Assembly (NCBI GenBank): GCA_947589455.1
Contig: CANQCD010000011.1
Span: 1 to 32,453 of the forward strand
Direction of reading: 5' to 3'
DNA from: an uncultured Lachnospiraceae bacterium
GTDB lineage: Bacteria > Bacillota > Clostridia > Lachnospirales > Lachnospiraceae
Length of the DNA stretch: 32,453 bases
This document shows positions 1 to 28,723 of this stretch, piece by piece; position 1 is the first letter of the stretch; each line of letters opens with the position of its first letter. The translations under genes were made by a program, and so were the position numbers. The notes under the pieces are model-generated. The model searched no databases. It had not been told where the DNA came from and saw nothing but the letters and a program-made list of their open reading frames with translations.

Positions 1-2586
1 CGCTGGTGTGCATTTACAGGAGAGTATGCCGCGTCAAAGACGGCGGGACTTACTGTGCCGAAGGATGCGTATAATACGACAAATCATTTGATGTTTGCCG
101 CACATATTTATAAGGCGACGACAAATGTGCAGTTTACGCTTGCGCAGATCATGGAGATGGATGCCGGCATGAATAATATGCAGAAGAATGGGTTTGGCGA
201 TATTCCGATGTATATTGGCGAGTGGGGCAACAGAAATTATGAACTGGAAGGTTCTGCAAGCGGTTACAACGATATTGAGCGTGCGGTTTACAGCGAGATT
301 GTCCATATGGCGGCACAGGCGCGGGGCATCTGCCCGATCGTCTGGGATACCCAGTGCGCAGAAGGTGAGACGGGAGTATATGCATTCTGGGATCGCAGTA
401 CGCAGAAGCCGTGGTATCAATCAATCATTGATGCAATGATGCGGGGGACTTTCAACAAACCGTCTGAGAAAAATATGGCGGCGGATTACACAGATATCTG
501 GGAGGCGTACGGCCATTCTTCCGCCTCGTCCACAGAGCTTGCAACAGAGCCGGAAGTGCAGGAAATAACAGATATTACAGTAGATGATTCTGTTACATTG
601 AAAAATGGCGAGGTGAAAGAGCTGGGGGCGAAAGCAGAGCCGGAGGGAAGCAATGATGTTGTCTTGTGGAGTACAGACGATGACAGCGTTGTGACAGTAT
701 ATCATGGCAAACTCCGCGCCAAAGGAACCGGTATGACAACGGTACACGCATATTCCCAGAGCGGTTCTGTCACAAAAGATATCAAGGTATATGTTAAAGA
801 TAACAGTGATTCTGCCACGACAGAGATTAAGATAGCAAAAGAGCTTTATTCTTTAAAGCAGGATGCAACAACGTCTATCAAGGCTTCTGTGCTTCCGGAG
901 GGCAGCAAGGATACTCTGACATATCAGTCTACCGATCCGGATGTGGCAACGGTAAACTCTGTCGGAAAGATTACTGCAGTCGGCGTTGGAAAAGCATATA
1001 TCATCGTCACGGCGTCCAATGGCATTACCGCAAGGGTTCCAGTGGAAGTAAAAATGGGAGCGTTGTATACGGATCAGGTAAATATTGCGCTTCACATTCT
1101 GTATAATGATACAGATAAAAATTATTACGGCACAGAGCTCAGCCAGCCGGTAGCGGTGAAAGAAGATGGGACATATACGGTTTCATTTGATTTGGCGTCA
1201 GAATTATCAGATGCGGCGAAGAAGGCCGGCATTACAGAAATCAACAGACTGACTTCTGTTTACCTGAAAGATTATGATATTACGATGAAGAACCAGACAG
1301 ATTCTATCTTGAATGCGGTGAAGCTTAGGTATGATAAGGTGACAGTAAATGATAAAGACCTTACGATAACCAGTTCTGACTGGGCAAATCCATTACAGGA
1401 GGGAACAAATGTCTTTGATTCCGGCGCGCCAATCAATGGATGGGTTGGAAATATCGTGGAGGAAGTTGATATTAATTCCTCTACCCACAGCGTGACATTT
1501 AAAGACATTGCAAATCCAACGAAGATTTCTGTTACGTTTACAGTAGAAGGCCTGGAATTTAAAAAATTCAGCGAGGGGAACACAAACGAAGCAACCGGAA
1601 TGGAGGCGGGGTCTGACAGTGAGATTTCCCTGGGCGCAGCGGGAGATACCGCTTCTGTCAAGGTAAAATTAACTCCTGCAGATACAGATTCCCGCGTATC
1701 ATTTATTTCAAGTGATACATCAATTTCTTCCGTTGATACGAAAGCGAAGGCGGTTGACGAGGAAGGAAATGCGGAGGCTGTGGTCACTGCAGTCGCAAAT
1801 GGCACGGCGGAGATCACGGCGATTACAGAAAATGGCCTGTCTCAGGTATTTCAAGTGATTGTCGGAGATGGAGTCAAGGGCAGCCTGGCAACTGCCGTAC
1901 CGCAGGATCCGTCTTCAACGCCGGGGACGGAAAATCCACCTGCCGCATCAGGGACGCCGGGGACGGAAAATCCACCTGCCGCATCAGGGACGCCGGGGAC
2001 AGAAAATCCGCCTGCCGCATCGGAAGTACCAGGCGGCGCCGGACTTGCCGCACAGAAAATAACCGTGGCAGGCAGCATAAAGAAAGTGTTTGGTGCAAAG
2101 GCCTTTGCCCTGAACGCATCTGTCAATGGTGATGGGGCGCTTTCTTATAGCAGCTCGAATAAAAAGGTGGCGACAGTTAGCAGCAGCGGGAAAGTGACGA
2201 TAAAAGGAGCTGGCATTACGACGATCACTGTTACCGCGGCGGCAACCACTTCCTACAGTGAGGCAGAGGCGGTCTGCAAATTGACGGTTACGCCAAAGAA
2301 GACAGCGCTGACGCGTGTTAAAAATCTGGCAGGGAAGAAGATAAAAGTGACATGGAAAAAGCGGGGAGAAGCTGCCGGTTATGAGATTTCTTATTCTACA
2401 GATAAGAAGTTAAAGAAGGGCGTAAAAAAGAAGCTGGTCAAGAAGGCAAAAACGACTTCTGTAACGCTTAAAAAGATGAAGAAGGGCAAAAAATATTATG
2501 TGAAGGTACGCGCTTATCAAAAGACGTCATCCAATATGATTTATGGGCCTTATTCTTCTGTGAAAAAAGTAAAAGTGAAAAAATAA
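1..2586 (+). CDS. GH5-family glycoside hydrolase with Ig-like and fibronectin III domains (5' end outside window)
   Basis: The frame is open from base 1, so the N-terminus and much of the catalytic barrel lie upstream; 861 codons are visible. The motif YIGEWG, with the Glu at codon 74, matches the GE-W/F-G nucleophile strand of glycoside hydrolase family 5, and a Trp-rich stretch follows (IVWDTQ, AFWDRS), as expected late in a GH5 barrel. After about codon 150 come Ig-like (Big_2-type) domains near codons 190-270 and 274-352, a beta-rich and probably carbohydrate-binding module near 354-520, a third Ig-like domain near 535-620, a Pro/Gly/Thr linker made of three 12-residue repeats, a fourth Ig-like domain near 683-766, and a very Lys-rich fibronectin III-like domain to the end. 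The family cleaves beta-glucans or beta-mannans; the substrate cannot be told here. The architecture suggests a large secreted or wall-associated enzyme, and the basic C-terminus may bind cell-wall polymers (inference). No clear terminator follows. Confidence 0.88.
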   Translation, partial: RWCAFTGEYAASKTAGLTVPKDAYNTTNHLMFAAHIYKATTNVQFTLAQIMEMDAGMNNMQKNGFGDIPMYIGEWGNRNYELEGSASGYNDIERAVYSEIVHMAAQARGICPIVWDTQCAEGETGVYAFWDRSTQKPWYQSIIDAMMRGTFNKPSEKNMAADYTDIWEAYGHSSASSTELATEPEVQEITDITVDDSVTLKNGEVKELGAKAEPEGSNDVVLWSTDDDSVVTVYHGKLRAKGTGMTTVHAYSQSGSVTKDIKVYVKDNSDSATTEIKIAKELYSLKQDATTSIKASVLPEGSKDTLTYQSTDPDVATVNSVGKITAVGVGKAYIIVTASNGITARVPVEVKMGALYTDQVNIALHILYNDTDKNYYGTELSQPVAVKEDGTYTVSFDLASELSDAAKKAGITEINRLTSVYLKDYDITMKNQTDSILNAVKLRYDKVTVNDKDLTITSSDWANPLQEGTNVFDSGAPINGWVGNIVEEVDINSSTHSVTFKDIANPTKISVTFTVEGLEFKKFSEGNTNEATGMEAGSDSEISLGAAGDTASVKVKLTPADTDSRVSFISSDTSISSVDTKAKAVDEEGNAEAVVTAVANGTAEITAITENGLSQVFQVIVGDGVKGSLATAVPQDPSSTPGTENPPAASGTPGTENPPAASGTPGTENPPAASEVPGGAGLAAQKITVAGSIKKVFGAKAFALNASVNGDGALSYSSSNKKVATVSSSGKVTIKGAGITTITVTAAATTSYSEAEAVCKLTVTPKKTALTRVKNLAGKKIKVTWKKRGEAAGYEISYSTDKKLKKGVKKKLVKKAKTTSVTLKKMKKGKKYYVKVRAYQKTSSNMIYGPYSSVKKVKVKK
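1918..2025 (+). repeat. 36-bp in-frame tandem repeat, 3 copies, in the exoprotein linker
   Basis: Three nearly identical 36-bp units start at 1918, 1954 and 1990. Each encodes 12 residues of a TPGTENPPAASG-type linker between Ig-like domains. The period is a multiple of three, so the frame is kept. Copies differ only by single bases, which suggests recent slippage expansion. Confidence 0.95.
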
Positions 2587-2641
2587 TGCAGACAGGGCGG
2601 AAGTTTATTGAGGCAGGGAACAGACGATTGCAAGGATTTTT

Positions 2642-2670
2642 TTGACATATTTCTGGCTATTTTATATAAT
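2642..2670 (+). promoter_or_regulatory. Consensus sigma-A promoter for the GGDEF-like gene
   Basis: TTGACA (2642-2647) and TATAAT (2665-2670) are both perfect consensus hexamers separated by exactly 17 bases. Transcription would start near 2677 and leave a leader of about 190 nt before the start codon at 2865. Confidence 0.85.
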
Positions 2671-2800
2671 AGCTGGTAAGCAGCAGTTTTTTGCATGGTC
2701 GTTCTTACACTGGACTTTTTATGGGGATAGTGTTACACTGTGTATATTAATCCTGTGTTTATTTTAGGTAGTTGTGAAACGGGATCGATTACCGCCCTGT

Positions 2801-2850
2801 GCCTGCGCGCCGCATGGCATAGGACTGTAGCAACAAGGCAGGCGGCGCAG
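2801..2850 (+). other. Leader hairpin with two competing pairings just before the GGDEF-like start codon
   Basis: CTGCGCGCCGC (2803-2813) can pair with GCGGCGCAG (2842-2850) if two bases bulge. Alternatively GCCTGC (2801-2806) can pair with GCAGGC (2838-2843). The two pairings share bases and exclude each other. The structure ends 4 nt before the likely ribosome binding site GGGGA (2855-2859). It matches no riboswitch class I recognise, so any regulatory role is inference. Confidence 0.4.
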
Positions 2851-2864
2851 AAATGGGGATTATT

Positions 2865-3359
2865 ATGAATGAGAAAAGAGATCGGTTGACAGGATTGTTT
2901 GACAAGGACAGCTGTGTCCGGCTGGTACGGGAGTATCTCAGCGAGGAGCAGGGCGGCGGGGTCGCGATTGTGCTGGATATCGACAATTTTAAAAAGATAA
3001 ACTCGTTATTTGGAGTAGAACGCGGGGATCAGGTGCTCAAAGAGACTGCAGAGATTCTAAAGGAATTTTTTCAGGAAAATGATATTATCAGCAGGATCCA
3101 AGGCGATCAGTTTGTGATATTTGCAAAAGACTGCAGGCATAATACCGGTTTGGATATCCGTCTGCATGAACTTTGTACGACATTGGAGCGGGAGCTTACA
3201 GAAGATGAAAACACATGTCTGGTCACAGCCAGTATGGGTGTGGCGATAACGGAGGATGTGGGTACGGATTTTGACCGGATCTATCAGGCGGCATGTGAGG
3301 CGCTGGATCAGGCAAAAAAAGAAGGCAAGGGCTCTGTTCAGTTTTATTCAAAACGCTAG
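2865..3359 (+). CDS. Degenerate GGDEF-domain protein (probably no cyclase activity)
   Basis: This 164-residue protein is a stand-alone GGDEF-like domain with no sensory or membrane segment. The fold is clear: DRLTGLFD near the start, the metal-site strand VLDIDNFKKIN, FGVERGDQVL, and a C-terminal alpha/beta half ending ALDQAKKEGKGSVQFY. The signature loop reads RIQGDQF where active diguanylate cyclases have R-x-GGDEF. The Gly-to-Gln and Glu-to-Gln changes remove the residue normally needed for metal-dependent GTP cyclisation, and no upstream RxxD inhibitory site is seen. It is probably a nucleotide-binding or protein-interaction module (inference). The start at 2865 has GGGGA five bases upstream; an ATG at 2853 lacks a site. 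The gene appears monocistronic behind a perfect promoter and a long leader. Confidence 0.85.
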   Translation: MNEKRDRLTGLFDKDSCVRLVREYLSEEQGGGVAIVLDIDNFKKINSLFGVERGDQVLKETAEILKEFFQENDIISRIQGDQFVIFAKDCRHNTGLDIRLHELCTTLERELTEDENTCLVTASMGVAITEDVGTDFDRIYQAACEALDQAKKEGKGSVQFYSKR

Positions 3360-3424
3360 TGCATCATAAGCGATATCTTTTGATTTTAGCGGGTAACAGG
3401 GTAACAGGTGAAAAGAGGATTTAG

Positions 3425-4912
3425 ATGGAACGTTATTTGGTAAAAAAGACAGACAGACCATTGAAGATCCAGATAGAAGCGCCCGGTTCAAAGAGTATTA
3501 CAAACCGGGCTCTTTTATTGGCTGCAATGGGCGGTGGGGAATCCGTGCTGAGGGGCGTTTTGTTCAGTGATGATTCTAATTGCTTTTTACAGGCGCTGCA
3601 GGACTTAGGTTTTGCGATCTGGACAGACCGTGAGAAAAAGTGCGTCCATATTTTAGGGCAGGACGGGCGGATCCCTAAAAAGAAAGCGGATATCTATGTG
3701 GGAAGCGCCGGGACGGCGGCGCGTTTTCTGACTGCTTTTCTGGCTGTGAGCGATGGAAGTTATCGTCTGGATGCCTCGGAGCAGATGCGCAAAAGGCCGA
3801 TGCGGGAGCTTTTGGAAGCTTTGGAGGCGCTTGGCGCAGAGATTACTTATGAAGAGGAAGCCTATCACTTTCCAATGGCGATCAGGGGGATTGGGTCCTG
3901 CGCTGCCGCTCATGTGGCGCCGGATGAAGAGAACCGTTCCGGGGAAGGCGCAGAGCATCCGGAGTCGGATGGAGAGAACCGTTCTGGGAAAGGCGCAGAG
4001 CATCCGGAGTCGGATGGAGAGAACCGTTCCGGAGAAAGCGCAGAGCATCTGGGATCAGAGGGATTGGATTGTCTGGAGACGGTCAGCGTGGAGTTAGATA
4101 TCGACAGGAGCAGCCAGTTTTTAAGCGCTCTTTTGATGACGGCGCCGCTTTTGGGAAAAAAGCTGACAGTCCGGCTGACAGGGAAGAGGAATGCGAGATC
4201 TTATGTGGAAATGACAGAGCAGATGATGAAGCAGTTTGGTCATCCGGGCGTAAACAGGCTGGATGAAAACTGCTATGAAGTGGAACCTTTCCCTTATCAG
4301 GCGAGGGATTACCGGATTGAGCCGGATGTGTCTGCGGCATGTTATTTTTACGCAATGGCTGCAGTTACGGGCGGTACGGCAGTGGTATACCATGTCCAAA
4401 AGGATTCTATGCAGGGGGATATGCGTTTTTTGGAGATATTGCATCAGATGGGCTGCAATATCTCGTGGCAGAAGATAGAGGGGATAGAGGAAGAGCAGCT
4501 TGTCCTTAGCGGTCCGGCGCATGGACGGCTGAAAGGGTTAGAGGCGTCTTTTAGTGATTTTTCTGATCAGGCGCTGACAATGGCGGCAATCGCTCCCTAT
4601 GCGGACAGTCCGGTTGCTATCCGTGGAATTGCCCATATCCGCGGGCAGGAATCTGACCGGATCGCTGTGATGGCGGAAGAGCTGTCGCGTCTTGGCGTGC
4701 GCTGTGAAGAATCGGAAGACGGCATTGTCATCTATCCGGGGAAAATACATGGCGCAGAGATAGAGACGCATGAGGATCACCGGGCAGCGATGGCTTTTGC
4801 TGTGACGGGGCTTCGGACGGACGGTGTAGTCATTAAAGATCCGAACTGCTGCAGAAAGACCTTTCCAGAATATTTTCAGGTTTTGGAAAAAATCTGTGGA
4901 AATGCCGGGTGA
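3425..4912 (+). CDS. aroA: 3-phosphoshikimate 1-carboxyvinyltransferase (EPSP synthase) with internal repeat insertion
   Basis: AroA transfers the enolpyruvyl group of PEP to shikimate-3-phosphate, the sixth step of the shikimate pathway, in the cytosol. Conserved elements appear in order: GSKSITNRALLLAAM (Lys23), GSAGTAARFLTAF near residue 92, RKRPMRELL, DIDRSSQFLSALLMTAPL, the aspartate-containing SDFSDQALTMAA, RGQESDRIAVMAEELSRLG, DHRAAMAFAV and a C-terminal KTFPEYF. Its 495 residues exceed the usual roughly 430 because residues 168-212 are three copies of a hydrophilic 15-residue repeat, inserted in a poorly conserved hairpin just before the SSQF strand. The basic residue normally before the catalytic Glu (x-K-E-x-D-R) is Gln here, an oddity. 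The ribosome binding site AGAGGA lies just upstream of the ATG. Other shikimate genes in the window are aroD, aroK and aroE. Confidence 0.95.
   Translation: MERYLVKKTDRPLKIQIEAPGSKSITNRALLLAAMGGGESVLRGVLFSDDSNCFLQALQDLGFAIWTDREKKCVHILGQDGRIPKKKADIYVGSAGTAARFLTAFLAVSDGSYRLDASEQMRKRPMRELLEALEALGAEITYEEEAYHFPMAIRGIGSCAAAHVAPDEENRSGEGAEHPESDGENRSGKGAEHPESDGENRSGESAEHLGSEGLDCLETVSVELDIDRSSQFLSALLMTAPLLGKKLTVRLTGKRNARSYVEMTEQMMKQFGHPGVNRLDENCYEVEPFPYQARDYRIEPDVSAACYFYAMAAVTGGTAVVYHVQKDSMQGDMRFLEILHQMGCNISWQKIEGIEEEQLVLSGPAHGRLKGLEASFSDFSDQALTMAAIAPYADSPVAIRGIAHIRGQESDRIAVMAEELSRLGVRCEESEDGIVIYPGKIHGAEIETHEDHRAAMAFAVTGLRTDGVVIKDPNCCRKTFPEYFQVLEKICGNAG
3926..4060 (+). repeat. 45-bp in-frame tandem repeat, 3 copies, inside aroA
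   Basis: Units start at 3926, 3971 and 4016. Each encodes 15 residues of the pattern GENRSGxGAEHPESD. The first two copies are almost identical and the third has drifted near its end. The period preserves the reading frame, so AroA stays intact. Confidence 0.96.
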
Positions 4913-5094: not shown

Positions 5095-6861
5095 ATGAAA
5101 AAGATAATGGAGCGTTTACAGGAGAAATTAAGCGCTGCCTTTGAAAAGGCGGGTTATGATAAAAAATACGCGAAAGTGGCGGTATCCAACCGGCCGGATC
5201 TGTGCCAGTACCAGTGTAACGGTGCGCTTGCCGCAGCAAAGGAATACCGCAAGGCGCCAATCCAGATAGCGCAGGATGTTGTCGGGCTGTTGGAAGACAG
5301 CGGCATATTTGCTGAAATAACGGCAGTCAGCCCTGGCTTTATCAATATGACAGTCAGCGATCCTTTTCTGGCAGACTTTATCAATGAAATGGCGGGAACA
5401 GAGCGGTTTGGGTGTCAGAAGGCGGAGAGAGAAGAGACGGTCATGATTGATTTTGGCGGCGCTAATGTGGCAAAACCGCTTCATGTCGGACATCTTCGCT
5501 CTGCGATCATCGGGGAGAGCATCAAGCGCACGGCAAGATATCTGGGATATCATGTGATCGGGGACGCCCATCTCGGAGACTGGGGGCTTCAGATGGGGCT
5601 GATCATTACGGAATTAAAAAAGAGACAGCCGGAGTTGGTTTATTTTGACGAGGCATTTCAGGGAGAATATCCAGAAGAGCCGCCATTTACCATGGCGGAT
5701 CTGGAGGAAATTTACCCGTGTGCCAACGGCCGCTCCAAGGAGGATGAAGAATATAAGGCGGAGGCGCAGGAAGCGACGGCGCAGCTGCAGGCCGGCCGGC
5801 GGGGATATCTTGCCTTGTGGAAGCATATTTTAAACGTTTCTGTGGCCGACCTGAAAAAGATTTATGATAAGTTAAATGTGACATTTGATCTGTGGAAAAA
5901 GGAGTCGGACGTCCAGCCGTATATACCGGATATGGTACAGGCGATGAAGGATGGGGGATACGCCCATATTGATCAGGGGGCGTTGGTAGTCGATGTCAAG
6001 GAAGAGACGGATACGAAAGAAATCCCACCGTGCATGATCCTGAAATCAAACGGCGCGACGCTCTATAATACGACAGATCTTGCAACAATCGTGGAACGGC
6101 GCAAGCTGTTTGATCCAGATCGGATCGTTTATGTCGTGGATAAGCGCCAGTCGCTCTATTTTGAGCAGGTATTCCGCTGTGCAAAAAAGACAAAGATTAT
6201 CGGGGAAGACGTAGATTTGGTTTTTCTCGGCTTTGGCACGATGAACGGCAAAGATGGGAAGCCGTTTAAGACGCGCGACGGCGGGGTGCTCCGTCTGGAA
6301 AAACTTCTCAGCGAGGTGGCAGGCTGCGTAGAGGAAAAGATGGCAGGCCGCGAGATGGAAGAAACAATCAGGAAAGACGCTGCGGCAAAGATTGGGCTGG
6401 CTGCGATCAAATACGGCGATCTGAGTAATCAGGCGTCAAAAGATTATGTGTTTGACATGGAGCGCTTCACTTCGTTTGAGGGCAATACCGGTCCATATAT
6501 CCTGTATACGATCGTGCGCATCAAATCGCTGATGAATAAGGTGGCAGAGCAGGGGATTACCGTGCCGGAGGATACGAAAATCCTTCCGGCGGGCGATAAG
6601 ACGCAGACAGAAGTCATGTTAGCGCTGTCAAAATGGAGCGAGACGGTAGAGACGGCTTTTGAGGAGTATGCGCCGCATAAAATCTGTCAGTTTGTCTATG
6701 AACTCTCAGATGCATTTAATCGATTTTATCATGAGAACAGGATCCTTGCGAATCCGGACGACGCAGTGCGCGCATCGCACATCAGCCTGTGCAGGCTTGC
6801 AGGGAAAATACTGGAGACTGGCATAGGGCTGCTGGGGCTGGAGGCGCCGGAAAAAATGTGA
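5095..6861 (+). CDS. argS: Arginyl-tRNA synthetase
   Basis: This class I aminoacyl-tRNA synthetase charges tRNA-Arg and needs the tRNA for amino acid activation. It is 588 residues, normal for the family. An N-terminal additional domain covers about residues 5-100. The HIGH-type motif is in GGANVAKPLHVGHLRS, followed by GDWGLQMGLII. A KMSKS-equivalent region appears as GKDGKPFKTRDGG, and the C-terminal DALR-type anticodon-binding domain contains YELSDAFNRFYHENRI. The start at 5095 is chosen because GGAGG sits 7 bases upstream; the frame is open back to 5050 but without a site. The 182-base gap after aroA shows no convincing promoter or terminator. The last nine codons, including the stop, form the start of a 70-bp tandem duplication that continues downstream. 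Confidence 0.96.
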   Translation: MKKIMERLQEKLSAAFEKAGYDKKYAKVAVSNRPDLCQYQCNGALAAAKEYRKAPIQIAQDVVGLLEDSGIFAEITAVSPGFINMTVSDPFLADFINEMAGTERFGCQKAEREETVMIDFGGANVAKPLHVGHLRSAIIGESIKRTARYLGYHVIGDAHLGDWGLQMGLIITELKKRQPELVYFDEAFQGEYPEEPPFTMADLEEIYPCANGRSKEDEEYKAEAQEATAQLQAGRRGYLALWKHILNVSVADLKKIYDKLNVTFDLWKKESDVQPYIPDMVQAMKDGGYAHIDQGALVVDVKEETDTKEIPPCMILKSNGATLYNTTDLATIVERRKLFDPDRIVYVVDKRQSLYFEQVFRCAKKTKIIGEDVDLVFLGFGTMNGKDGKPFKTRDGGVLRLEKLLSEVAGCVEEKMAGREMEETIRKDAAAKIGLAAIKYGDLSNQASKDYVFDMERFTSFEGNTGPYILYTIVRIKSLMNKVAEQGITVPEDTKILPAGDKTQTEVMLALSKWSETVETAFEEYAPHKICQFVYELSDAFNRFYHENRILANPDDAVRASHISLCRLAGKILETGIGLLGLEAPEKM

Positions 6862-7005
6862 CGGCTGCTGCCGGCATATGAAGCCAGTTTTTTGGAGCTG
6901 CCAGGGGCTGGAGGCGCCGGAAAAAATGTGACGGCTGCTGCCGGCATATGAAGCCAGTTTTTTGGAGCTGCCAGGGCTGGAGGCGCCGGAGAATGTGACG
7001 GCTGC
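6834..7005 (+). repeat. 70-bp tandem duplication of the argS 3' end, 2.4 copies
   Basis: Copy 1 (6834-6903) and copy 2 (6904-6973) appear identical over all 70 bases. A third, diverged partial copy runs to about 7005. The unit starts in the codons for GLEAPEKM and the argS stop. Because copy 3 lacks one G, the repeat frame shifts into the open frame of the next gene, giving that frame a spurious GLEAPEN-like N-terminal extension. Confidence 0.96.
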
Positions 7006-10798: not shown

Positions 10799-10930
10799 CA
10801 GTTGTTTCTGGCAGTGGACAGAATGGCCGGCGAGTTGGTTTCCGTGGTGAGCCGGTGGGCTGATCAGTTGCTTCCGGTGATGGACAGGCTGGCCGGCGAG
10901 TTGGTTTCTGTGGCAGTCAGAATGGCTGGC
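10799..10930. repeat. 66-bp tandem repeat, about 2 copies
   Basis: Copies start at 10799 and 10865; each contains GGCCGGCGAGTTGGTTT. They match well to about 10912 and then diverge. With the 43-bp array this fills the 473-base gap between degV and the pyruvyl transferase gene. I see no convincing gene in that gap. Confidence 0.8.
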
Positions 10931-10963: not shown

Positions 10964-10976
10964 ATTTTATAAATGA

Positions 10977-11184
10977 TCGACTTCTTTTTATTCCATCTGG
11001 TTCTCTTTGATCTAAATAGTCGACTTCTTTTTATTCTGTCTGGTTTTCTCTGATCTAAATGGTCGACTTCTTTTTATTCTGTCTGGTTTTCTCTGATCTA
11101 AATAATCGACTTCTTTTTATTCCATCTGGTTCTCTTTGATCTAAATAGTCGACTTCTTTTTATTAAGCCCGGTTCTCTCTAATA
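10977..11184. repeat. 43-bp tandem repeat, 5 copies, grown from a gene 3' end
   Basis: TCGACTTCTTTTTATT recurs at 10977, 11020, 11063, 11106 and 11149, exactly 43 bp apart. The copy at 11149 is the coding end of the minus-strand pyruvyl transferase gene, whose stop codon is at 11143-11141, so the other four copies are downstream echoes of its last codons. Copies 1 and 4 share ATTCCATCTGG while copies 2 and 3 share ATTCTGTCTGG. Confidence 0.96.
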
Positions 11185-12559
11185 TATATTGACAGATCAG
11201 GGAATTGCTATTTTTTTCTGGTTCTTGTTTTTGAAGGGTGCCAGAAAATTCCTTTATTCCACCTGTGTTTTGGCGGCCATATTTTCCGGTCGGCTTATTT
11301 TTCTTGCCGTTCCAACGTCCGACGTCTTTCTTCCTTTTGCTCTGCTGTCTTGGCGTCAATGCCGAAAATGCCTGGACAAACGGTGCAAATTTTAGCTTTT
11401 TGGCACGCAGATCGTAGGGGGGATTTTTTTGGGAGGCTTCTTTGTCAAATATTGTATCCAGTCCATTTGTATGCAGAAAATCCAAATAATGTTTAAAACG
11501 TTCCGGATGACCTTTTTGCAGAGCTGAAAAATCCGACCTGTCATACAGATCAAAAATATTGCTCTGTTCTGTCAGCTCTTTCATAGGAAGATGAGGGATA
11601 TGGTGATAATCCACCAGCTCTGAAATTCTCTGGTCTGAAACGATGACAAAACATGGCGTCCCTGCCAGGATTGCTGCGATATTCCCATGGATCCTGCTGC
11701 CAAAAGAGAAATCTCGTCCCTGAAGGAAGCGAATCCATGAAATTGTGTTTGTAAAGGCCAGACCACTGCCGGAAGCATAGATTGGCGCATTAAAATCTGC
11801 CGGGAAATGTTCTGGGACTTTTTTATTCCAGAATGTTTTTGGAAGAGGAGTTCCTGTAAACATCATCCGGATTTCTTCAATAACCTGTGCGATATAAACA
11901 TGATTTGGCAGTGCCTGACAGCTCTTCCACATAAAATTGTGAAATTTTTCGGGAAGGCTGATCTTGGAGTTTATGCTGACCAGGCTTTTCGGCGTCAATT
12001 CTTTTATCTCCATTTCCGGCAATTTTTCCCCATACATATACATAGAAGGGCATCCGATAACGGTATAGTCTTTTTCTGCCTGGAAGCCGAGGCTTGCCAG
12101 ATAATCTGCAGTAAACTCGCCGCGCACGCCTGCGACTGCAGATTTATTTAGCACCGCCTTCATAAAGTTTTTTACAGATTCGTCCAGTTTTGGATCGTTC
12201 GCTTTTTTATCCGGAGGCGCCTGCGCGCCAATTCCAACGACAACACAAGGTATTTTCAAATGATTGATCAATTCTGCCGTATTATCCAATTCATCAATAA
12301 ATGACCGGCGAAAAGCATTGGCAAAAGGCAGGATCAGGCAGCTGTATGTCGCGTTGATCTTGCTGATGTCCTCAGGGGTATAATGCTTTTTGGTATGAAT
12401 TGTATCAATTTGTGTATCTTCTAACAATAAGGCGCGGTTGACGCTGGACTGGAAAAGCATGTTTCCCATATTGTTGCCAATGAGATTACAACAGATTACT
12501 TCTGCCGGGCTATAATTGCCTAGTGGAGCCATTTTTGCCCTGAGTAATATCTTTTTCAT
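11141..12559 (-). CDS. Polysaccharide pyruvyl transferase family protein
   Basis: This 472-residue protein contains the C-terminal signature of the polysaccharide pyruvyl transferase family (PF04230): FSFGSRIHGNIAAILAGTPCFVIVSDQR. Upstream it has VVVGIGAQAP and AGVRGEFTADYL, and an N-terminal NLIGNNMGNMLFQSS-like glycan-enzyme start. Members transfer pyruvyl groups from PEP to sugars of exopolysaccharide or wall polymers; here the acceptor is unknown. The last 90 or so residues are a basic, Gln/Asn/Lys-rich tail outside the family domain. The start is taken at 12559, where AGGAG lies ten bases upstream; an in-frame ATG at 12568 is too close to that site. No other polysaccharide genes are nearby, so it is an orphan. 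Its final codons belong to the 43-bp array. Confidence 0.85.
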   Translation of the reverse strand: MKKILLRAKMAPLGNYSPAEVICCNLIGNNMGNMLFQSSVNRALLLEDTQIDTIHTKKHYTPEDISKINATYSCLILPFANAFRRSFIDELDNTAELINHLKIPCVVVGIGAQAPPDKKANDPKLDESVKNFMKAVLNKSAVAGVRGEFTADYLASLGFQAEKDYTVIGCPSMYMYGEKLPEMEIKELTPKSLVSINSKISLPEKFHNFMWKSCQALPNHVYIAQVIEEIRMMFTGTPLPKTFWNKKVPEHFPADFNAPIYASGSGLAFTNTISWIRFLQGRDFSFGSRIHGNIAAILAGTPCFVIVSDQRISELVDYHHIPHLPMKELTEQSNIFDLYDRSDFSALQKGHPERFKHYLDFLHTNGLDTIFDKEASQKNPPYDLRAKKLKFAPFVQAFSALTPRQQSKRKKDVGRWNGKKNKPTGKYGRQNTGGIKEFSGTLQKQEPEKNSNSLICQYILERTGLNKKKSTI

Positions 12560-12671
12560 GATTTCCATTCTCCTGTTTTACGTAAAGTTTTTTGCGGTCG
12601 TCTCTTTCAGTATTTCCAGCGCGGCAGATATTATCCATATGGCATTTTTCGTTATTTTGGAAAGAACTATT

Positions 12672-12744
12672 TGTCAGCTTCGGCGGCTGCTTTCCTGTCA
12701 GCTTCGGCGGCTGCTTTCTTGTCAGCTCCGGCTGGCTGCTTTCC
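12672..12744. repeat. 24-bp tandem repeat, 3 copies, between divergent genes
   Basis: TGTCAGCTTCGGCGGCTGCT recurs at 12672 and 12696, and with small changes at 12720 (25 bp). The array lies just upstream of the ilvN promoter. Short open frames run through it on both strands but have no ribosome binding sites, and I do not regard them as genes. Confidence 0.93.
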
Positions 12745-13384: not shown

Positions 13385-14516
<1,132 letters not shown>

Positions 14517-14727: not shown

Positions 14728-16677
14728 ATGATTGTTCAGCATAACATCAGCGCAATGGCAGTCAGGCGCATGTTGGGGCAGAATGAAAAAACAAAGCTGA
14801 AATCATTAGAAAAACTGAGCTCGGGATACCGCATTAACCATGCGGCAGACGATGCCGCCGGTCTTGCAATCTCGGAAGAGATGAGGGGACAGATCAGAGG
14901 ACTTGAAAGGGCAGCAGATAATGTAGAAGATGGGATTAGTTATGTGCAGGTGGCGGATGCTGCACTTGAGGAGGTACATGCCATTCTGCAGCGGATCAAC
15001 GTATTGTCGGTACAAGCTGCAAACGATACGAACACGTCAGCGGACAGAGTTATCATTGATAATGAGATTCAGCTTTTAAAAGATGAGATAGACTATATTT
15101 TTGAGGAGACGGAATATAATACGATCAAAATATGGGATACGCATTCGGCGAGCCGGCAGCAGATTGGTGTGGAGAAGCGGCAGGCCTTAACATTTACGAA
15201 TGGTTATCAGAGTTTTTCCGTATCGGAAATCAATAAAGGAGCTGTCGCTTATAGAGGCTATCAAATCGAAGTGAAGGGCATGGATCGGAACGATCCGGAC
15301 AATTATGGTTTTACGGTAAAGTGGCAGGGATGGAACGGCAAGGATTATGAGTCAAAATTGGTAAATTGGGATGACGTAGGGACCGGGGCTTTTGAAATGC
15401 AGCTGGGACATTATCTGGATTTGGATAAGTATCCGGAATTGGAGGGGATCAATTACCATATTGGGTGGACGACACAGCCGACCGCCACGCTGAAAGATGT
15501 TGCCGCCAGCATCGATGGCGTTACTTTTTCCAGCGGCATCTCTTCTTCGGAGTCGATCACATTTAATACAAAGGTGGATGGAGTTAGTTTTTCTGTTTCT
15601 ACAGACTATCTGTCGGAGCTGGCTTCTGGACGAAATGTAGAGCAATATGATACGACGTGGATTGAACCGCTGCCCTCTGGTGGCAGCAACCTGATACAGT
15701 CTCCAGACTATACGGATCCGCAGGAAAATACTCCGTGGAAATTTCAGTTTACCATGCCGGGGATTGGCACGGTTACGGCAACGTCAAGCAGTATGTATTA
15801 TTACTGCAGCGACGGCGACAGCAAATATGAAGATCTGTGGTGGCGTTGGGTAGATGCAAAACCCAGCAGATATAAAGGGACGATTGATCACAAGCCGGCG
15901 TCTTCTGCCGGGACAGGAACGCTCCATGCACTGACAGACTGCATTACGGATTCCGGTAACGAAGGGGATTCGCTTACAAGAGATACAACCAGCGGAGGGA
16001 GGATCATCGTTACGTTCCCATTGATCCCTTCAAGCGGGAGTGTTACTTATGAGGGGAGAAGTGGGCCAGGCAACATCGGGGAAATCACAATGTCTGTCAG
16101 CGTGAGGAAAGATGACACCGAAGAAACTTTGATGAACCGTATCAAGCAGGCATTGAACGAGACAACAATAGCCGATATTTATGAGGGAAACGAGCAGGCC
16201 GGCACGCCATTTCGGTCGACGGCGTCTATGAGCAGCGGAACGGCAAAGGAGCATTTGATCGACATACCGATTTATAAGACAGTACGTGATATCCATGTGC
16301 AGGCGGGGGCAAATGCTTTTCAGGATATAGAGATTGTGTATGATTCTCTGCGGACAGGAAATCTCGGGGTCGCTGATACCAATGTATTGGACAGGAGGGC
16401 TGCCACAAAGGCGATTGCACAGGTACATGCTGCGATTGAGGTGATATCGGGACAGAGAGCTGTTTTCGGATCTTATCAGAACAGGATGGAACATGCCGCC
16501 CTTGTGGATGAGAATACGGCGGAGAATTTGCAGGCGTCAGAAAGCGCCATCCGCGATACTGACATGGCGGATGAGATGGTGAGGCTGTCTGTTTCTAATA
16601 TTTTGGCACAGGCGGGGGAGGCAATGCTTGCCCAGGCAAATAATATGACTTCAGGAGTTCTGACGCTGCTTCAGTAA
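14728..16677 (+). CDS. Flagellin with large central variable domain
   Basis: This 649-residue protein has canonical flagellin ends: N-terminal D0/D1 (MIVQHNISAMAVRRM, LSSGYRINHAADDAAGLAIS, LQRINVLSVQAANDTN) and C-terminal D1/D0 (AIEVISGQRAVFGSYQNRME, ESAIRDTDMADEMVRLS, AQANNMTSGVLTLLQ). About 400 central residues (roughly 150-550) form a Ser/Thr/Gly-rich surface domain, so the protein is well above the 270-500 residues of many flagellins. It is exported without a cleaved signal and polymerises into the filament. Many active flagellins have a Glu in the QR-x(2)-EL segment of the TLR5 site; here the position is Val (RINVL). The start at 14728 has GGAGG upstream, although the frame is open back to 14668. 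No other flagellar genes are nearby. Confidence 0.95.
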   Translation: MIVQHNISAMAVRRMLGQNEKTKLKSLEKLSSGYRINHAADDAAGLAISEEMRGQIRGLERAADNVEDGISYVQVADAALEEVHAILQRINVLSVQAANDTNTSADRVIIDNEIQLLKDEIDYIFEETEYNTIKIWDTHSASRQQIGVEKRQALTFTNGYQSFSVSEINKGAVAYRGYQIEVKGMDRNDPDNYGFTVKWQGWNGKDYESKLVNWDDVGTGAFEMQLGHYLDLDKYPELEGINYHIGWTTQPTATLKDVAASIDGVTFSSGISSSESITFNTKVDGVSFSVSTDYLSELASGRNVEQYDTTWIEPLPSGGSNLIQSPDYTDPQENTPWKFQFTMPGIGTVTATSSSMYYYCSDGDSKYEDLWWRWVDAKPSRYKGTIDHKPASSAGTGTLHALTDCITDSGNEGDSLTRDTTSGGRIIVTFPLIPSSGSVTYEGRSGPGNIGEITMSVSVRKDDTEETLMNRIKQALNETTIADIYEGNEQAGTPFRSTASMSSGTAKEHLIDIPIYKTVRDIHVQAGANAFQDIEIVYDSLRTGNLGVADTNVLDRRAATKAIAQVHAAIEVISGQRAVFGSYQNRMEHAALVDENTAENLQASESAIRDTDMADEMVRLSVSNILAQAGEAMLAQANNMTSGVLTLLQ

Positions 16678-17676: not shown

Positions 17677-17762
17677 TCTATGGAAATCCCAGACGGCTTC
17701 GGGGAACCGGTGAAAGTGTCACGCCAGTGTGACGCCTTTTCGGCTAATCCCCATTCCAAGCG

Positions 17763-17966
17763 AATTGATTCGTTTTGCGGATTCAGTTGCTTTGCGGATG
17801 TATTCGTTTTGCGGATTCAGTTGCTTTGCGGATTCATTCGCTTTGTGGATTGATTCGCTTTGCGGATTGATTCGTTTTTTGGATTCAGTTGCTTTGTGGA
17901 TTCAGTTGCTTTGCGGATGTATTCGTTTTGCGGATGTATTTGCTTTGTGGATTGATTCGTTTTGTG
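17763..17966. repeat. 17-bp tandem repeat, 12 copies, between aroD and aroK
   Basis: Twelve direct 17-bp units run without interruption from 17763 to 17966, with starts every 17 bases. The consensus is GATTSATTCGYTTTGYG, with variant forms containing CAGTTGC. Variant types recur in order along the array, a sign of block duplication. The period is not a multiple of three, and no ribosome binding site supports the open frames across it. The rest of the 413-base gap holds no feature I can support. Confidence 0.97.
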
Positions 17967-19245: not shown

Positions 19246-19282
19246 CTTGCCTGGGATGATTTTAGATCATAATGAAAATACA

Positions 19283-19325
19283 AAAACTAAAAAGAGTTTC
19301 CAATCTGGAAACTCTTTTTAGTTTT
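19283..19325. terminator. Bidirectional terminator between efp and aroE
   Basis: A perfect 20-bp stem (19283-19302 with 19306-19325) closes a 3-nt loop. The ends are A-rich on the left and T-rich on the right, so it can terminate from both directions. It serves efp (plus) and aroE (minus). Confidence 0.93.
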
Positions 19326-19455
19326 AAAGGGGATGGCGGCGATATGTTTTATGCCCTTTTGTTCTGTTTTTTCTGGTACTTGGAAACTCTTTTAGTTTTA
19401 AAAGGGACAGTGGCGATATGTTTTACGCCCCTTCGTTCTGTTTTTTCTGATACAG
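19306..19455. repeat. 75-bp tandem duplication joining the aroE 3' end and half of the terminator
   Basis: Copy A (19306-19380) and copy B (19381-19455) match closely; both start TGGAAACTC and end in the codons for YQKKQN. Copy B contains the true aroE end (stop at 19425-19423). Copy A contains a second version of the tail plus the right arm of the terminator. As a result there are two right arms and one left arm of that hairpin. Confidence 0.92.
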
Positions 19456-20235: not shown

Positions 20236-20415
20236 GCGCCCGGTTCTGCCGGCCTGCGGGCTTTCTGCTAAAATGCTGCGCTGCAAAATAGCGCCGGGAA
20301 ATCTGGTTCTGTCGGCCTTTGAGCTTTCTGCTAAAATAGTGCGCTGCAAAATAGCGCCGGGGAATCTGGTTCTGCCGGCCTGTGAGTTTTTCGCTAAAAT
20401 GGTGCGTCGGAAAAT
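20236..20415. repeat. 63-bp tandem repeat, about 3 copies, between aroE and spoIIIAA
   Basis: The units are anchored at 20240, 20303 and 20366 by (T/C)GGTTCTG(C/T)CGGCCT. They share a TTTCTGCTAAAAT block and a GCGCTGCAAAATAGCGCC segment, itself a small hairpin. The period happens to be divisible by three, so open frames cross it, but none has a ribosome binding site. This array takes up half of the 356-base divergent gap. Confidence 0.93.
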
Positions 20416-22062: not shown

Positions 22063-22270
22063 GCGGAAAGCCATGCGTTTTGTATTGATCTGGCAGAACA
22101 GGAAAAAAGCATTGAAGCGGAGAGCCATGCATTTTGGCGCTGATCTGGCAGAACAGGAAAAAAGCATTGAAGCGGAAGGCCATGCGTTTTGGTATTGATC
22201 TGGCAGAACAGGAAAAAAGCATTGAAGCGGAAAGCCATGCGTTTTGGCATTGATCTGGCAGGGAGTGGCT
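22063..22270. repeat. 55-bp tandem repeat, about 3.8 copies, between spoIIIAB and spoIIIAC
   Basis: TGATCTGGCAG recurs at 22086, 22141, 22196 and 22251, exactly 55 bp apart, and the block AGGAAAAAAGCATTGAAGCG is conserved in each full copy. The period is not a multiple of three. The array fills a junction that is usually tight in spoIIIA operons. Confidence 0.96.
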
Positions 22271-22525: not shown

Positions 22526-22565
22526 GCTCTGGTGTGGAAAACGCTGGCGGAAGGAGTGGGAAATT

Positions 22566-22940: not shown

Positions 22941-22958
22941 AGGCGGAAAGGAGACGTT

Positions 22959-24014: not shown

Positions 24015-24040
24015 GAAGCGCGGCTCGCGCAGAGAACATA

Positions 24041-24325
24041 CCTGGTTCCGGGGTTTTGCAATCGCCACAGAAAGCCGTTCGAAAATAAATGCCCGGTTCG
24101 AGGGGTTTGCAATTACCGCAGAAAGCCGTTTAAAAGTAAATGCCCGGTTCGAGGGGTTGCAATCACCGCAGAAAGCCGTTTAAAAGTAAATGCCCGGTTC
24201 GAGGGGTTGCAATCACCGCAGAAAGCCATTCGAAAATAAATGCCCGGTTCGAGGGTTTTGCAATCACCGCAGAAAGCCGTTTAAAAATAAATGCCCGGTT
24301 TCAGGGTTTTGCAATCGCCACAGAG
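24041..24325. repeat. About 50-bp tandem repeat, 5.5 copies, between spoIIIAE and spoIIIAF
   Basis: CAGAAAGCC (last copy CAGAGGG) recurs at 24068, 24119, 24169, 24219, 24270 and 24319, that is 49-51 bp apart. The units share CCCGGTTCGAGGGGTTGCAA. One- and two-base indels shift the reading frame between copies. The array ends directly at the spoIIIAF ribosome binding site. Nothing else is seen in this 320-base gap. Confidence 0.96.
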
Positions 24326-24334
24326 GGAGGGAAG

Positions 24335-25473: not shown

Positions 25474-25519
25474 CGCTGTTTTACCGCATAAGAAGTGGGA
25501 ACAGGGACAGGAGGGCAAG

Positions 25520-26209
25520 GTGAAAAAAGTAGTCAGGAAAAATCAAATTATCATTACGGCATTAGCGATCATGATTGTCGTAGCGGGGTATCTGAATTTT
25601 ACAGGCCAGGAGATCAGTACCAGCGGATTAGTAAGCTCCCAGAACAAGGAAAAGACAGAAACTGCAGATCATAGGAAAGATACAGCCGCTTCCGGCGACG
25701 ATGCGGTGGAAACCTCGGCAGAGAAGAGTGGGAAGACAGATCTTTCTGCAGAAGAAGACGGGGAGGACGGTTATACGGTAAATGCCGACGGGGAGATTGT
25801 TGCTTCCGAAAAAAATCCCGGCGAGGCGGTCATGGTATCCAATGCGTTAAGCAGCGATTATTTTTCCTCTGCCAAGCTTTCCAGAGAGCAGAGCCGTGCG
25901 AAAAACAAAGAGACATTAATGGAGATCATCAACAACGAAGAGCTTGCGTCCGCCGATAAAAAGTCAGCGGTAAAAGAAGTGGCGGCGATCACAAAATGGG
26001 CGGAGCAGGAGAATGCGGCAGAGTTAATGCTGGAGGCAAAGGGATTTTCAGAAGCGATGGTCAGCATCAGCGACAACGGAGCCGACGTCGTTGTAAATGC
26101 CAGCAAGCTGTCAAAACAGCAGATGGCGCAGATTGAGGATATCATGCTCCGCAAAACAGACGTGGCGGCAGAAAACATTGTGATCACTCCGGTTACAGTA
26201 GAGGAATAA
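25520..26209 (+). CDS. spoIIIAH: Stage III sporulation protein AH
   Basis: This 229-residue protein has an N-terminal TM (IIITALAIMIVVAGYLNF), a long acidic Ser/Asp/Glu-rich linker (about residues 35-110), and a C-terminal ring-building domain (SREQSRAKNKETLMEIINN, AAELMLEAKGFSEAMVSIS, AAENIVITPVTV). SpoIIIAH binds SpoIIQ across the septum. The start is GTG at 25520 after GGAGGG. It is the last gene of the spoIIIA operon; no hairpin terminator is visible before the next promoter. Confidence 0.93.
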   Translation: MKKVVRKNQIIITALAIMIVVAGYLNFTGQEISTSGLVSSQNKEKTETADHRKDTAASGDDAVETSAEKSGKTDLSAEEDGEDGYTVNADGEIVASEKNPGEAVMVSNALSSDYFSSAKLSREQSRAKNKETLMEIINNEELASADKKSAVKEVAAITKWAEQENAAELMLEAKGFSEAMVSISDNGADVVVNASKLSKQQMAQIEDIMLRKTDVAAENIVITPVTVEE

Positions 26210-26214
26210 AAGAA

Positions 26215-26243
26215 TTGCATTTATCCTGCGTTTTGATTATAAT
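26215..26243 (+). promoter_or_regulatory. Sigma-A promoter for the asp23-nusB-xseA operon
   Basis: TTGCAT (26215-26220), a 17-base spacer and TATAAT (26238-26243), starting six bases after the spoIIIAH stop. It separates vegetative expression of the downstream genes from the sporulation operon. Confidence 0.7.
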
Positions 26244-26288
26244 CAGTTATAGCAAGAAGATTCCGGCGTTAGTAAAGGAGGTTCGGTT

Positions 26289-26666
26289 GTGGGCAAAACA
26301 CAGGAAGCGCAGGGCGCTGCAGAAGAAAAAAAAGGGATTGGGGAAGTAAAGATTGCGGCGGACGTCGTGACATTGATCGCCGGACTGGCGGCAAACGAGG
26401 TAGAGGGCGTCTATTGCACGGCTGGCAATGTCACAAATGAACTGATAGGAAAGCTTGGGAGAAAGAGACTTTCCAAAGGGGTTAAAGTCAATATGGAGGA
26501 TGGGGCGGTGCGCGTTGACATCATATTCCATGTAAAATACGGCTATAGCATTCCGAAAGTATCAAAGATGGTGCAGGATAAAGTCAGCCAGCAGATTGAG
26601 ATGATGACAGGCCTGGTTGTCCCGGAGGTAAACGTCAGGGTGGCGGGAGTCAATCTGGCAGAGTAA
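26289..26666 (+). CDS. Asp23/Gls24 family envelope stress protein
   Basis: This 125-residue protein has the Asp23 core: IAADVVTLIAGLAANEVEGVY, KGVKVNMEDGAVRVDIIFHVKYGYSIPKVSKMVQDKV and a C-terminal MTGLVVPEVNVRVAGVNLA. Family members sit at the cell envelope in Firmicutes, and a copy upstream of nusB is common in clostridia. The start is GTG at 26289, with AAAGGAGG eight bases upstream. Its last codons (NLAE and stop) begin a 71-bp array that runs to nusB. Confidence 0.9.
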   Translation: MGKTQEAQGAAEEKKGIGEVKIAADVVTLIAGLAANEVEGVYCTAGNVTNELIGKLGRKRLSKGVKVNMEDGAVRVDIIFHVKYGYSIPKVSKMVQDKVSQQIEMMTGLVVPEVNVRVAGVNLAE

Positions 26667-26883
26667 GGAAAGAGACAGAAAGGGAAATTGTCAGAAGACG
26701 CCGGCATAGGCTAAGTTAAGCTAATCTGACAGAAGAAGGAAAGAGACAGAAAGGGAAATTGTCAGAAGACGCCGGCATAGGCTAAGTTAAGCTAATCTGG
26801 CAGAGTAAGAGAAGAGACAGAAAGGGAAATTGTCAGAAGACGCCGGCATAAGCCAAGTTAAGCCAATCTGGCAGAAAAAGGAA
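26651..26883 (+). repeat. 71-bp tandem repeat of the asp23 3' end, about 3.2 copies
   Basis: AGAGACAGAAAGGGAAA recurs at 26671, 26742 and 26813 (71 bp apart), and a shortened form starts at 26883. The codons for NLAE and the stop of asp23 recur within the array; the copy near 26793 preserves CTGGCAGAGTAAG. Copies are nearly identical, so expansion is recent. Confidence 0.95.
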
Positions 26884-26906
26884 GAGAAAGAAAAGGTACT
26901 TTGATA

Positions 26907-27323
26907 ATGACAAGGAGAAGAAAACGGGAAAATCTATATCTCATGTTGTTTCAGATGGATTTTCACGCAGAGGCTGATATAGAAGAACAGGCGGACATTT
27001 TTTTAGAAGAGTTAGAAGACGACAGTGCGTCACAAAAAGTAAAAAAAGAGTTAAAAGAGCGTTTTTTACAGGTGCGCGCACATTTGGGAGAAATTGACGG
27101 TCATATTGAAAAGACAGCGGACGGCTGGGAGCTTTCCCGGCTTGCAAAGGCAGACCTTACCGTGCTTAGGCTGGCTGTTTTTGAAATCCTTTTTGACGCA
27201 GACGTGCCGGACGGCGTGGCGATCAGCGAGGCAGTCGAGCTGGCAAAGCGCTACGGCGGGGATAAATCGTACCGCTTTGTAAATGGGATCTTGGGCACGA
27301 TCGCCAGGCAGGAGAAAGCGTGA
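26907..27323 (+). CDS. nusB: Transcription antitermination factor NusB
   Basis: NusB is the helical RNA-binding protein that with NusE/S10 recognises boxA and promotes rRNA antitermination. The 138-residue protein opens with TRRRKRENLYLMLFQMDF and ends with the family's VAISEAVELAKRYGGDKSYRFVNGILGTI. ATG 26907 is preferred because family members start MTRR; a TTG at 26901 is in frame. xseA starts 37 bases after its stop. Confidence 0.93.
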   Translation: MTRRRKRENLYLMLFQMDFHAEADIEEQADIFLEELEDDSASQKVKKELKERFLQVRAHLGEIDGHIEKTADGWELSRLAKADLTVLRLAVFEILFDADVPDGVAISEAVELAKRYGGDKSYRFVNGILGTIARQEKA

Positions 27324-27360
27324 TCAAAGCTTTGCAAGGCAAAGGGAGGATGAGTTTTTT

Positions 27361-28560
27361 ATGCAGGAAGTATGCACCGTTTCACAGATTAATATGTATA
27401 TTAAAAATCTGTTTGTCAGAGACAGTTCCCTGCGGCGGGTAAGGGTAAAAGGCGAGGTGTCCGACTGCAAATACCATTCGTCAGGGCACATTTATTTTAC
27501 CATTAAGGACAGGAAATCCCAGCTTGCCTGCGTTATGTTCCGCTCTTATACACGTGGTCTTGCTTTTCGCCTGGAAGAGGGACAAAGTGTAGTTGTCGAG
27601 GGCGGCATCAGCGTCTACGAGCGCGATGGAAAATATCAGATGTACGCAGCGGCAGTCACGCAGGACGGCGCGGGAGAATTATATGAAGAATATGAAAGGT
27701 TAAAAAAGCGCCTCTTAGCGGAGGGGCTTTTTGATGACAGCAGGAAAAAGCAGATTCCGCGTTATGCCAAAAAAATTGGTGTTGTGACAGCGGAGACAGG
27801 CGCTGTGATCCAGGATATCTGTAATGTTTCCAGGAGGCGGAATCCATATGTGCAGATTGTCCTCTACCCCGCAAGGGTACAGGGGGAAGGGGCGCATCAG
27901 ACTGTGATCCGTGGAATCCGGTATCTGGAAAATACCGATGTTGATACGATCATTATCGGGCGCGGCGGCGGTTCGATTGAGGATTTGTGGGAGTTTAATA
28001 ATGAAGCGCTGGCAAGAACGGTCGCAGATTGCAAAAAGCCGGTCATATCGGCAGTAGGCCACGAGACGGACACAACGATCGTTGACTTTGCGGCGGATCT
28101 GCGCGCACCGACGCCGTCTGCCGCCGCAGAACTTGCCGTGTTTGCCTACCGCGATTTTGAGATTGGGCTGCGGGAGTATGCTTACACGATGAACCGCCAG
28201 ATGGACAACCTGATACAGATGTATCGGATGCGCCTGAAGCATTATGGGACAAGGATTTCCCATGCGGCGCCGGAAGATCAGATTCGCCAGAAGAGGATGT
28301 TCCTGGCGGATTTTGAGGCGCGCCTGGGACGCGAGATAGAGCGGAAGCTGGAGGCGGCAAAGCATCAGACTGCCCTGTATATTGAAGAGTTAAAAGGAGT
28401 CTCGCCTTTAGAGAAGCTGCAGGCGGGCTATGCCTATGTCTCCGATGCAGAGGGAAATCATGTGTCCTCGGTAGGGACGCTCTCTCCCGGACAGAAGCTC
28501 TCCCTGACAATGGCAGACGGAAAGGCGGAAGTATCTGTAGAGAAGATTGTCTGCCCCTGA
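27361..28560 (+). CDS. xseA: Exonuclease VII large subunit
   Basis: XseA is the catalytic large subunit of exonuclease VII, which degrades single-stranded DNA to oligonucleotides. The 399-residue protein has the N-terminal OB fold (VRVKGEVSDCKYHSSGHIYF) and the catalytic core motifs GRGGGSIEDLWEFNNE and GHETDTTIVDFAADLRAPTP. A coiled-coil-like helical region follows, and a C-terminal PLEKLQAGYAYVSD tail. ATG 27361 is the only in-frame start after AAAGGGAGGA. Its last 16 codons are the first copy of a 53-bp tandem array. Confidence 0.95.
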   Translation: MQEVCTVSQINMYIKNLFVRDSSLRRVRVKGEVSDCKYHSSGHIYFTIKDRKSQLACVMFRSYTRGLAFRLEEGQSVVVEGGISVYERDGKYQMYAAAVTQDGAGELYEEYERLKKRLLAEGLFDDSRKKQIPRYAKKIGVVTAETGAVIQDICNVSRRRNPYVQIVLYPARVQGEGAHQTVIRGIRYLENTDVDTIIIGRGGGSIEDLWEFNNEALARTVADCKKPVISAVGHETDTTIVDFAADLRAPTPSAAAELAVFAYRDFEIGLREYAYTMNRQMDNLIQMYRMRLKHYGTRISHAAPEDQIRQKRMFLADFEARLGREIERKLEAAKHQTALYIEELKGVSPLEKLQAGYAYVSDAEGNHVSSVGTLSPGQKLSLTMADGKAEVSVEKIVCP

Positions 28561-28723
28561 CGACGGCAGACGGAAAAGCAGAAGAAGTTGTAGAAAAGAC
28601 TGTCTGCCCCTGACGACGGCAGACGGAAAGGCGGAAGTATCTGTAGAGAAGATTGTTTGACTCAGGCGACGGCAGGCGGAAAGACAGAAGAAATTGTAGA
28701 AAAGACTGTCTGAACCGGACGGA
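28512..28723 (+). repeat. 53-bp tandem repeat of the xseA 3' end, 4 copies with 106-bp higher order
   Basis: GGCAGACGG (last copy GGCAGGCGG) recurs at 28512, 28565, 28618 and 28671. Copy 1 is coding and ends xseA. Copies 1 and 3 share GGCGGAAGTATCTGTAGAGA, whereas copies 2 and 4 share the GAAGAA(G/A)TTGTAGAAAAGACTG type. A 53-bp duplication therefore preceded a 106-bp one. Confidence 0.96.

Follow-up and report, generated by a model that had tools for sequence, protein, structure and literature searches.

The window analysed here, a whole contig (C11) of 32,453 bp, comes from a metagenome assembly of 2.62 Mb in 228 contigs that is 87.7% complete. It carries aroA, argS, ilvC, a flagellin gene, aroD, a shikimate kinase gene, efp, aroE, spoIIIAA-AG, nusB and xseA, and further a farnesyl diphosphate synthase gene and dxs, all called with our own simple codon-usage script and not with a standard annotator. 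The nearest named record for SpoIIIAE is in the assembly 'Clostridiaceae bacterium U.11_7' (82% identity), and others are bacterium D16-36 and two 'uncultured Lachnospiraceae'; we take the organism to be probably Lachnospiraceae-like. The flagellin open reading frame (14728-16677) encodes 649 aa with family matches at both ends. An Rfam search of the window gave no matches.

The genes are interspersed with tandem repeat arrays. With TRF at a score of at least 50 we find 12 distinct arrays (periods 36, 45, 70, 43, 24, 51, 74, 63, 55, 51, 71 and 53/106), every one of which scores at least 100, the level called strong below. The first-pass annotation had listed 14 arrays from the letters alone, and all 14 are real, the remaining two being imperfect two-copy duplications under the TRF threshold. 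One pairs 10799-10847 with 10865-10913 (84% alike, spacing 66), and the other 14417-14466 with 14467-14516 (78% alike, spacing 50). The 14 features are as follows.

1918..2021: 36-bp array, 2.9 copies (TRF), in frame inside the open reading frame at 1-2586, unit TPGTENPPAASG
3921..4049: 45-bp array, 2.9 copies (TRF), in frame inside aroA (3425-4912)
6834..7005: 70-bp array, 2.5 copies (TRF), beginning in the 3' end of argS, with the argS stop codon in the first copy
10799..10913: imperfect two-copy duplication spaced by 66 bp, in the gap below a minus-strand DegV-family gene
10970..11180: 43-bp array, 4.9 copies, in the same gap and entering the 3' end of the minus-strand open reading frame at 11141-12568
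12672..12744: 24-bp array, 3.0 copies, in the divergent gap that precedes the gene for the small subunit of acetolactate synthase
14417..14516: imperfect 50-bp duplication, in two copies, that takes in the 3' end of ilvC and its stop codon (NEDEKLINN* / NEDEKRINN*)
17760..17964: 17-bp array, 12.1 copies (TRF also gives 51, or 3 x 17), in the gap that separates aroD from the shikimate kinase gene
19306..19453: 74-bp array, 2.0 copies, in the gap where efp and aroE converge
20242..20406: 63-bp array, 2.6 copies, in the gap from which aroE and spoIIIAA diverge
22063..22261: 55-bp array, 3.6 copies, beginning 8 nt past the spoIIIAB stop codon
24044..24324: 51-bp array, 5.5 copies, in the spoIIIAE-spoIIIAF gap
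26652..26893: 71-bp array, 3.4 copies, before nusB, with the stop codon of the open reading frame at 26289-26666 in the first copy
28502..28712: 53-bp (or 106-bp) array, 4.0 copies, beginning within the 3' end of the xseA gene, whose stop codon is at 28558-28560

Two of these arrays (1918-2021 and 3921-4049) are intragenic and 12 lie in gaps or across gene ends, just as had been annotated. An excess over shuffled controls is also seen, since 100 dinucleotide shuffles of the window yielded 9 arrays of score at least 50 when summed, against 12 in the real sequence, and none of at least 100. That nearly all longer gaps hold an array is true of the window, where 8 of the 11 gaps of at least 200 bp in our gene calls contain a TRF array (9 if 14417-14516 is counted), but fails for the genome, where 80 of 198 sampled gaps of this length contain one. 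As a separate observation, within 19246-19453 the array between efp and aroE repeats the second half of a putative terminator stem and then T-rich DNA.

The same search was applied to 776 kb of the 2.62 Mb, drawn from this one metagenome assembly as 41 loci including the window, mostly the largest contigs, and to 1,571 kb from 27 congeners, made up of 397 kb of the closest sister genome (G017) and 1,173 kb of the other 26. The focal sample contains 188 arrays, 134 of them strong, which cover 4.3% of the sequence by TRF; in the 745 kb outside the window there are 176 arrays, compared with 2 in a single dinucleotide shuffle of the same sequence. Strong arrays number 1.72 per 10 kb here versus 0.22 in the congeners (34 in total), of which 18 are in the sister (0.45 per 10 kb) and 16 in the other 26 genomes. 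With the window excluded, rate tests gave P=6.6e-9 against the sister and P=1e-33 against the other congeners. Three congeners (G015, G019 and G023) have 0.75-1.0 strong arrays per 10 kb, their samples being just 20, 40 and 40 kb long. As at least one strong array is found in 38 of the 41 sampled loci, the excess reflects neither one odd island nor a stray contig. The genome-wide tendency that had been suggested from the window therefore holds, and compared with the sampled congeners it is lineage-specific: the excess of local tandem duplication in this lineage is real. It may stem from a higher birth rate of arrays or from weaker removal.

It could be argued that these are ordinary bacterial minisatellites arising at an ordinary rate and that the window is merely rich in them, since minisatellites (VNTRs) are common in bacteria and strong arrays are about twice as frequent in the window as in the remaining sample (12 in 32 kb versus 122 in 745 kb). 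We consider this very unlikely, as the sample without the window is still about 7-8 times denser in arrays than the pooled congeners, and one 50-kb stretch of E. coli K-12 contains no array of score at least 100. Tandem duplications of tens of bases are seldom seen in bacteria, whose genomes tend to be compact, and they are unstable. The arrays do share with minisatellites the direct head-to-tail copies with units longer than about 10 bp, here 17-200 bp in 2-20 copies; what sets them apart is their density, their spread to nearly every sampled locus and their confinement to one species.

The arrays follow the reading frame where they are translated. Periods are divisible by three in 66 of the 71 wholly coding arrays, compared with 27 of the 69 wholly noncoding ones (Fisher P=4e-12) and 15 of the 48 that are mixed, in agreement with the proposal that frame selection acts inside genes alone. 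The coding arrays encode hydrophilic, low-complexity segments (42 arrays listed). The frame bias also bears on whether assembly or binning has joined strain variants or misassembled pieces end to end. The assembly is a metagenome in 228 pieces, and tandem self-matches are commoner at contig termini (4 of 41) than in internal pieces (10 of 400), and both points speak for such an artefact. An assembler is blind to reading frame, however, and would hardly keep nearly all coding arrays in frame; moreover, the copies differ from each other by about 11% and arrays occur in almost every locus, and we regard this explanation as highly improbable. The surplus of tandem matches at contig ends suggests instead that arrays are under-called in our sample.

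Arrays are concentrated at gene junctions. Mostly intergenic arrays account for 115 of the 188, against 28.5 expected at random and a maximum of 50 in 200 random sets, which corresponds to an approximate density of 10 per 10 kb in gaps and 1 in genes. Within codirectional gaps, 42 of 58 arrays are closer to the upstream stop codon than to the next start codon (P=0.0009; median distances 8 versus 80.5 nt), and a stop codon falls within a strong array 39 times, a start codon 12 times. Such a preference for DNA past stop codons is what would be expected if that DNA is the least constrained. Using reciprocal best hits between partial samples of the focal genome and the sister as orthologues, we find 78 adjacent gene pairs kept in both, of which 12 carry an array here. 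The sister's gap is the shorter one in all 12 (medians 271.5 bp here versus 109 bp there), whereas the 66 array-free pairs are about equal (medians 57 versus 54 bp; 29 longer, 27 shorter, P=0.21). Among array-free pairs that differ from the sister by more than 60 bp, 13 are longer and 6 shorter, and the longer ones may be decayed arrays. Of the arrayed junctions, that between spoIIIAE and spoIIIAF spans 320 bp in the focal genome versus 26 bp in the sister. Only the junction before nusB has arrays in both species, with periods of 71 bp (here) and 45 bp (sister), the sole shared case of the 12. At argS, ilvC and the open reading frame at 26289-26666, the gene's own last codons and stop lie in the first copy and the extra copies follow downstream. 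The junction arrays thus expand in place from local DNA, the alignments inspected covering about nine of the 12 arrayed pairs, some of them in part.

In genes the comparison with the sister is different. AroA (3425-4912), a conserved enzyme, has 495 aa versus 439 in the sister and carries an insertion of 43 aa made up of repeats; 38 of the 43 array residues lie opposite a gap in the sister protein. In the other nine comparable genes with coding arrays, most array residues align to sister residues, and thus a gain in place is seen at junctions but in just one gene.

The strong enrichment in gaps, the placement just past stop codons and the occurrence of arrays within an operon-like run (spoIIIA, nusB, xseA) would also be compatible with functional elements, such as spacers, insulators, mRNA 3' elements or regulatory repeats, which selection maintains at junctions. 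Selection for spacer length had indeed been offered as a cause, and we find no sign of it, nor any sign of function. The units are mostly locus-unique, only 12 of the 134 strong arrays having a match elsewhere in the sampled sequence, which agrees with the statement that units differ between arrays. They are also less structured than array-free gap pieces, with a fold z below -2 in 5 of 62 units compared with 33 of 120 gap pieces (the first 120), so that we reject hairpins as the driver of the arrays. A single arrayed junction of 12 is also arrayed in the sister, and with another period. Furthermore, 73 of the 188 arrays are mostly coding, which speaks against the idea of a process aimed at gene junctions as well, and a selection filter alone would leave the same gap enrichment and 3' preference. 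We therefore find it improbable that the arrays are functional elements. That so many arrays are mostly coding suggests instead that the duplications arise everywhere and are then filtered.

Adjacent copies differ at 716 of 6,711 sites (10.7%), chiefly by transitions (ts/tv 3.1), and divergence between the focal species and its sister is 59.7% over 9,449 four-fold sites; given equal neutral clocks, a typical array would be roughly a tenth as old as the species split. Only 2 of 92 noncoding arrays have copies at least 99% alike, and a perfect array of at least three units occurs once in 776 kb. This scarcity of near-perfect arrays is better matched by a past burst, or by young arrays having dropped out in assembly, than by a steady birth that still goes on. 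Periods are mostly 35-75 bp, and higher-order repeats are clear in just 2 of the 27 arrays with at least four full copies.

How the copies are made may be read from the array edges. TRF copy numbers show no preference for whole numbers, and the remainders spread evenly across the period (134 arrays). A single slip between short direct repeats leaves only a few bases of homology, and of the 16 arrays whose copies are at least 95% alike, 11 have a remainder of 15-109 bp, while a simple short slip fits 5; the argS array has a remainder of just 3 bp by an ungapped measure. Because the last copy is partial but long in most of the near-identical arrays, we favor backward template switching, in which the polymerase would jump backward on its template and re-enter at a shifted point, leaving a partial last copy. 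We put this copying step forward tentatively, at less than even odds, since edge deletions occurring later could give the same picture of partial copies.

A repair or replication cause had been proposed, and none was found among the genes tested by family-match search, in which a match stands for gene presence and function is predicted from sequence. That DNA polymerase I has lost its flap nuclease, an idea that rests on work on yeast rad27 and E. coli polA, is rejected, the 5'-3' exonuclease domain being full length here (25 of 28 genomes matched); the polymerase domain is found as two pieces on two contigs. Loss of MutL, SbcD, RecJ or RecG is rejected as well, with a family match for each in the focal genome. 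In the part of the E. coli literature available to us, RecG and RadD are tied to RecA-independent template switching. Ku end joining gave no match in the focal genome and a match in 1 of 28 genomes. A Y-family polymerase has one match here and is present in 21 of 28 genomes, and reverse transcriptase has one match here compared with 0-9 in the other genomes, which indicates no excess.

Two genes of mismatch-repair families themselves carry in-frame arrays. A MutS-like open reading frame (G000:C7:6830-7597) has an in-frame 48-bp array of 3.7 copies between the halves of its MutS_V domain match, and mutL is split across two contigs (the end of C189 and the start of C193) inside a 97%-identical 48-bp linker array. 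These in-frame arrays, together with slightly more lineage-unique protein changes than in the sister (1964 versus 1683), could point to a general hypermutator or mismatch-repair defect of which the arrays are one symptom among raised mutation of every kind. The ratio of protein change is merely 1.17, however, over 94 triplets in which some genes have more than one outgroup, and this argues against a strong general mutator. MutS_V matches are present on three contigs, the MutS_V and MutL matches exceed the family cut-off, and the sister mutL region also has a 48-bp array (3.1 copies; L068:18861-19011). Mismatch repair, besides, acts chiefly on short loops and not on loops of 20-130 bp. We accordingly judge a hypermutator to be quite improbable.

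Taken as a whole, we favor a lineage-specific excess of local tandem duplication (units of about 20-130 bp) filtered by selection, to which we assign a probability of about 0.7. Each array would grow from DNA already at its site. We infer that the duplications arise chromosome-wide during replication or gap repair, and that selection removes most of those that disrupt genes, promoters or ribosome-binding sites. The survivors would then be those downstream of stop codons, or in frame within hydrophilic protein linkers. The signature of such selection is visible in this genome, with out-of-frame copies nearly absent from genes, in-frame copies kept in linkers and free build-up past stop codons. 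With about eight times the array density of its congeners while the tested main repair genes are present, the focal species and its sister offer a natural comparison, which could show what suppresses or provokes tandem duplications of tens of bases.

The closest parallel that we know of is found in the Borg elements, for which the text available to us (PMC9879509) describes pervasive tandem arrays that have locus-unique units and are seldom conserved from one close relative to another, periods divisible by three in open reading frames and not in gaps, and hydrophilic coding arrays. Some Borg arrays begin within gene ends, and the arrays are often flanked by partial repeats, which the authors report as a puzzle (PMC9879509). 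As far as that text goes, the focal genome has in common with Borgs the locus-unique units, the in-frame periods of coding as opposed to intergenic arrays, the partial copies at array edges, the arrays at gene ends, the hydrophilic coding arrays, the pervasiveness and the scant sharing of arrays among relatives. On the other hand, the Borg is a linear archaeal extrachromosomal element, and the arrays described here lie on a bacterial chromosome, with housekeeping and sporulation genes in the window. The perfect-copy rule of the Borg study (at least three units, at least 50 nt, no mismatch) selects one array in 776 kb here, and the array share of 4.3% by TRF stands against 0.62% by that stricter rule (PMC9879509). 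Unlike in Borgs as described there, adenine is not enriched on the gene strand, adenine making up 30.8% both of 58 arrays and of 195 array-free gaps, with G higher and T lower in the arrays; units are mostly 35-75 bp, and there is no PolB-family polymerase in the 28 genomes of the genus. The focal arrays work like Borg repeats but are not a member of that system. The likeness to Borg repeats suggests that no polymerase specific to Borgs is needed for the pattern. One might go further and propose a Borg-like process on a bacterial chromosome, in which a lineage-specific template-switching activity or failed safeguard has, since the split from the sister, created local tandem duplications genome-wide, lengthened junctions and added in-frame disordered segments to housekeeping enzymes (AroA, the MutS-like protein, MutL); we see this as somewhat unlikely. 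In the literature covered, consisting of listings and the openings of abstracts with preprints excluded, no such pattern is described in Lachnospiraceae.

Intergenic tandem units, often near gene ends, are also seen in bacteria as dispersed families. The mycobacterial MIRUs are one such sequence family present at many sites. The staphylococcal STAR elements are likewise described, in the portion of the STAR literature at hand, as a single-sequence intergenic family at many sites. The focal arrays resemble these in location and differ, on the same partial basis, in being mostly locus-unique. They do not make up one dispersed family of the MIRU or STAR kind, and only five arrays, all among the 12 with a match elsewhere, belong to one such family. 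These five (L044:6099-6241, L044:14779-14942, L046:16594-16886, L058:6987-7144 and L138:11980-12151) are sites at which a dispersed, imperfect intergenic repeat has become tandem. In addition, a related 17-bp unit is common to three of those 12 arrays, at 17760-17964 in the window, L134:5902-6058 and L134:10244-10323.
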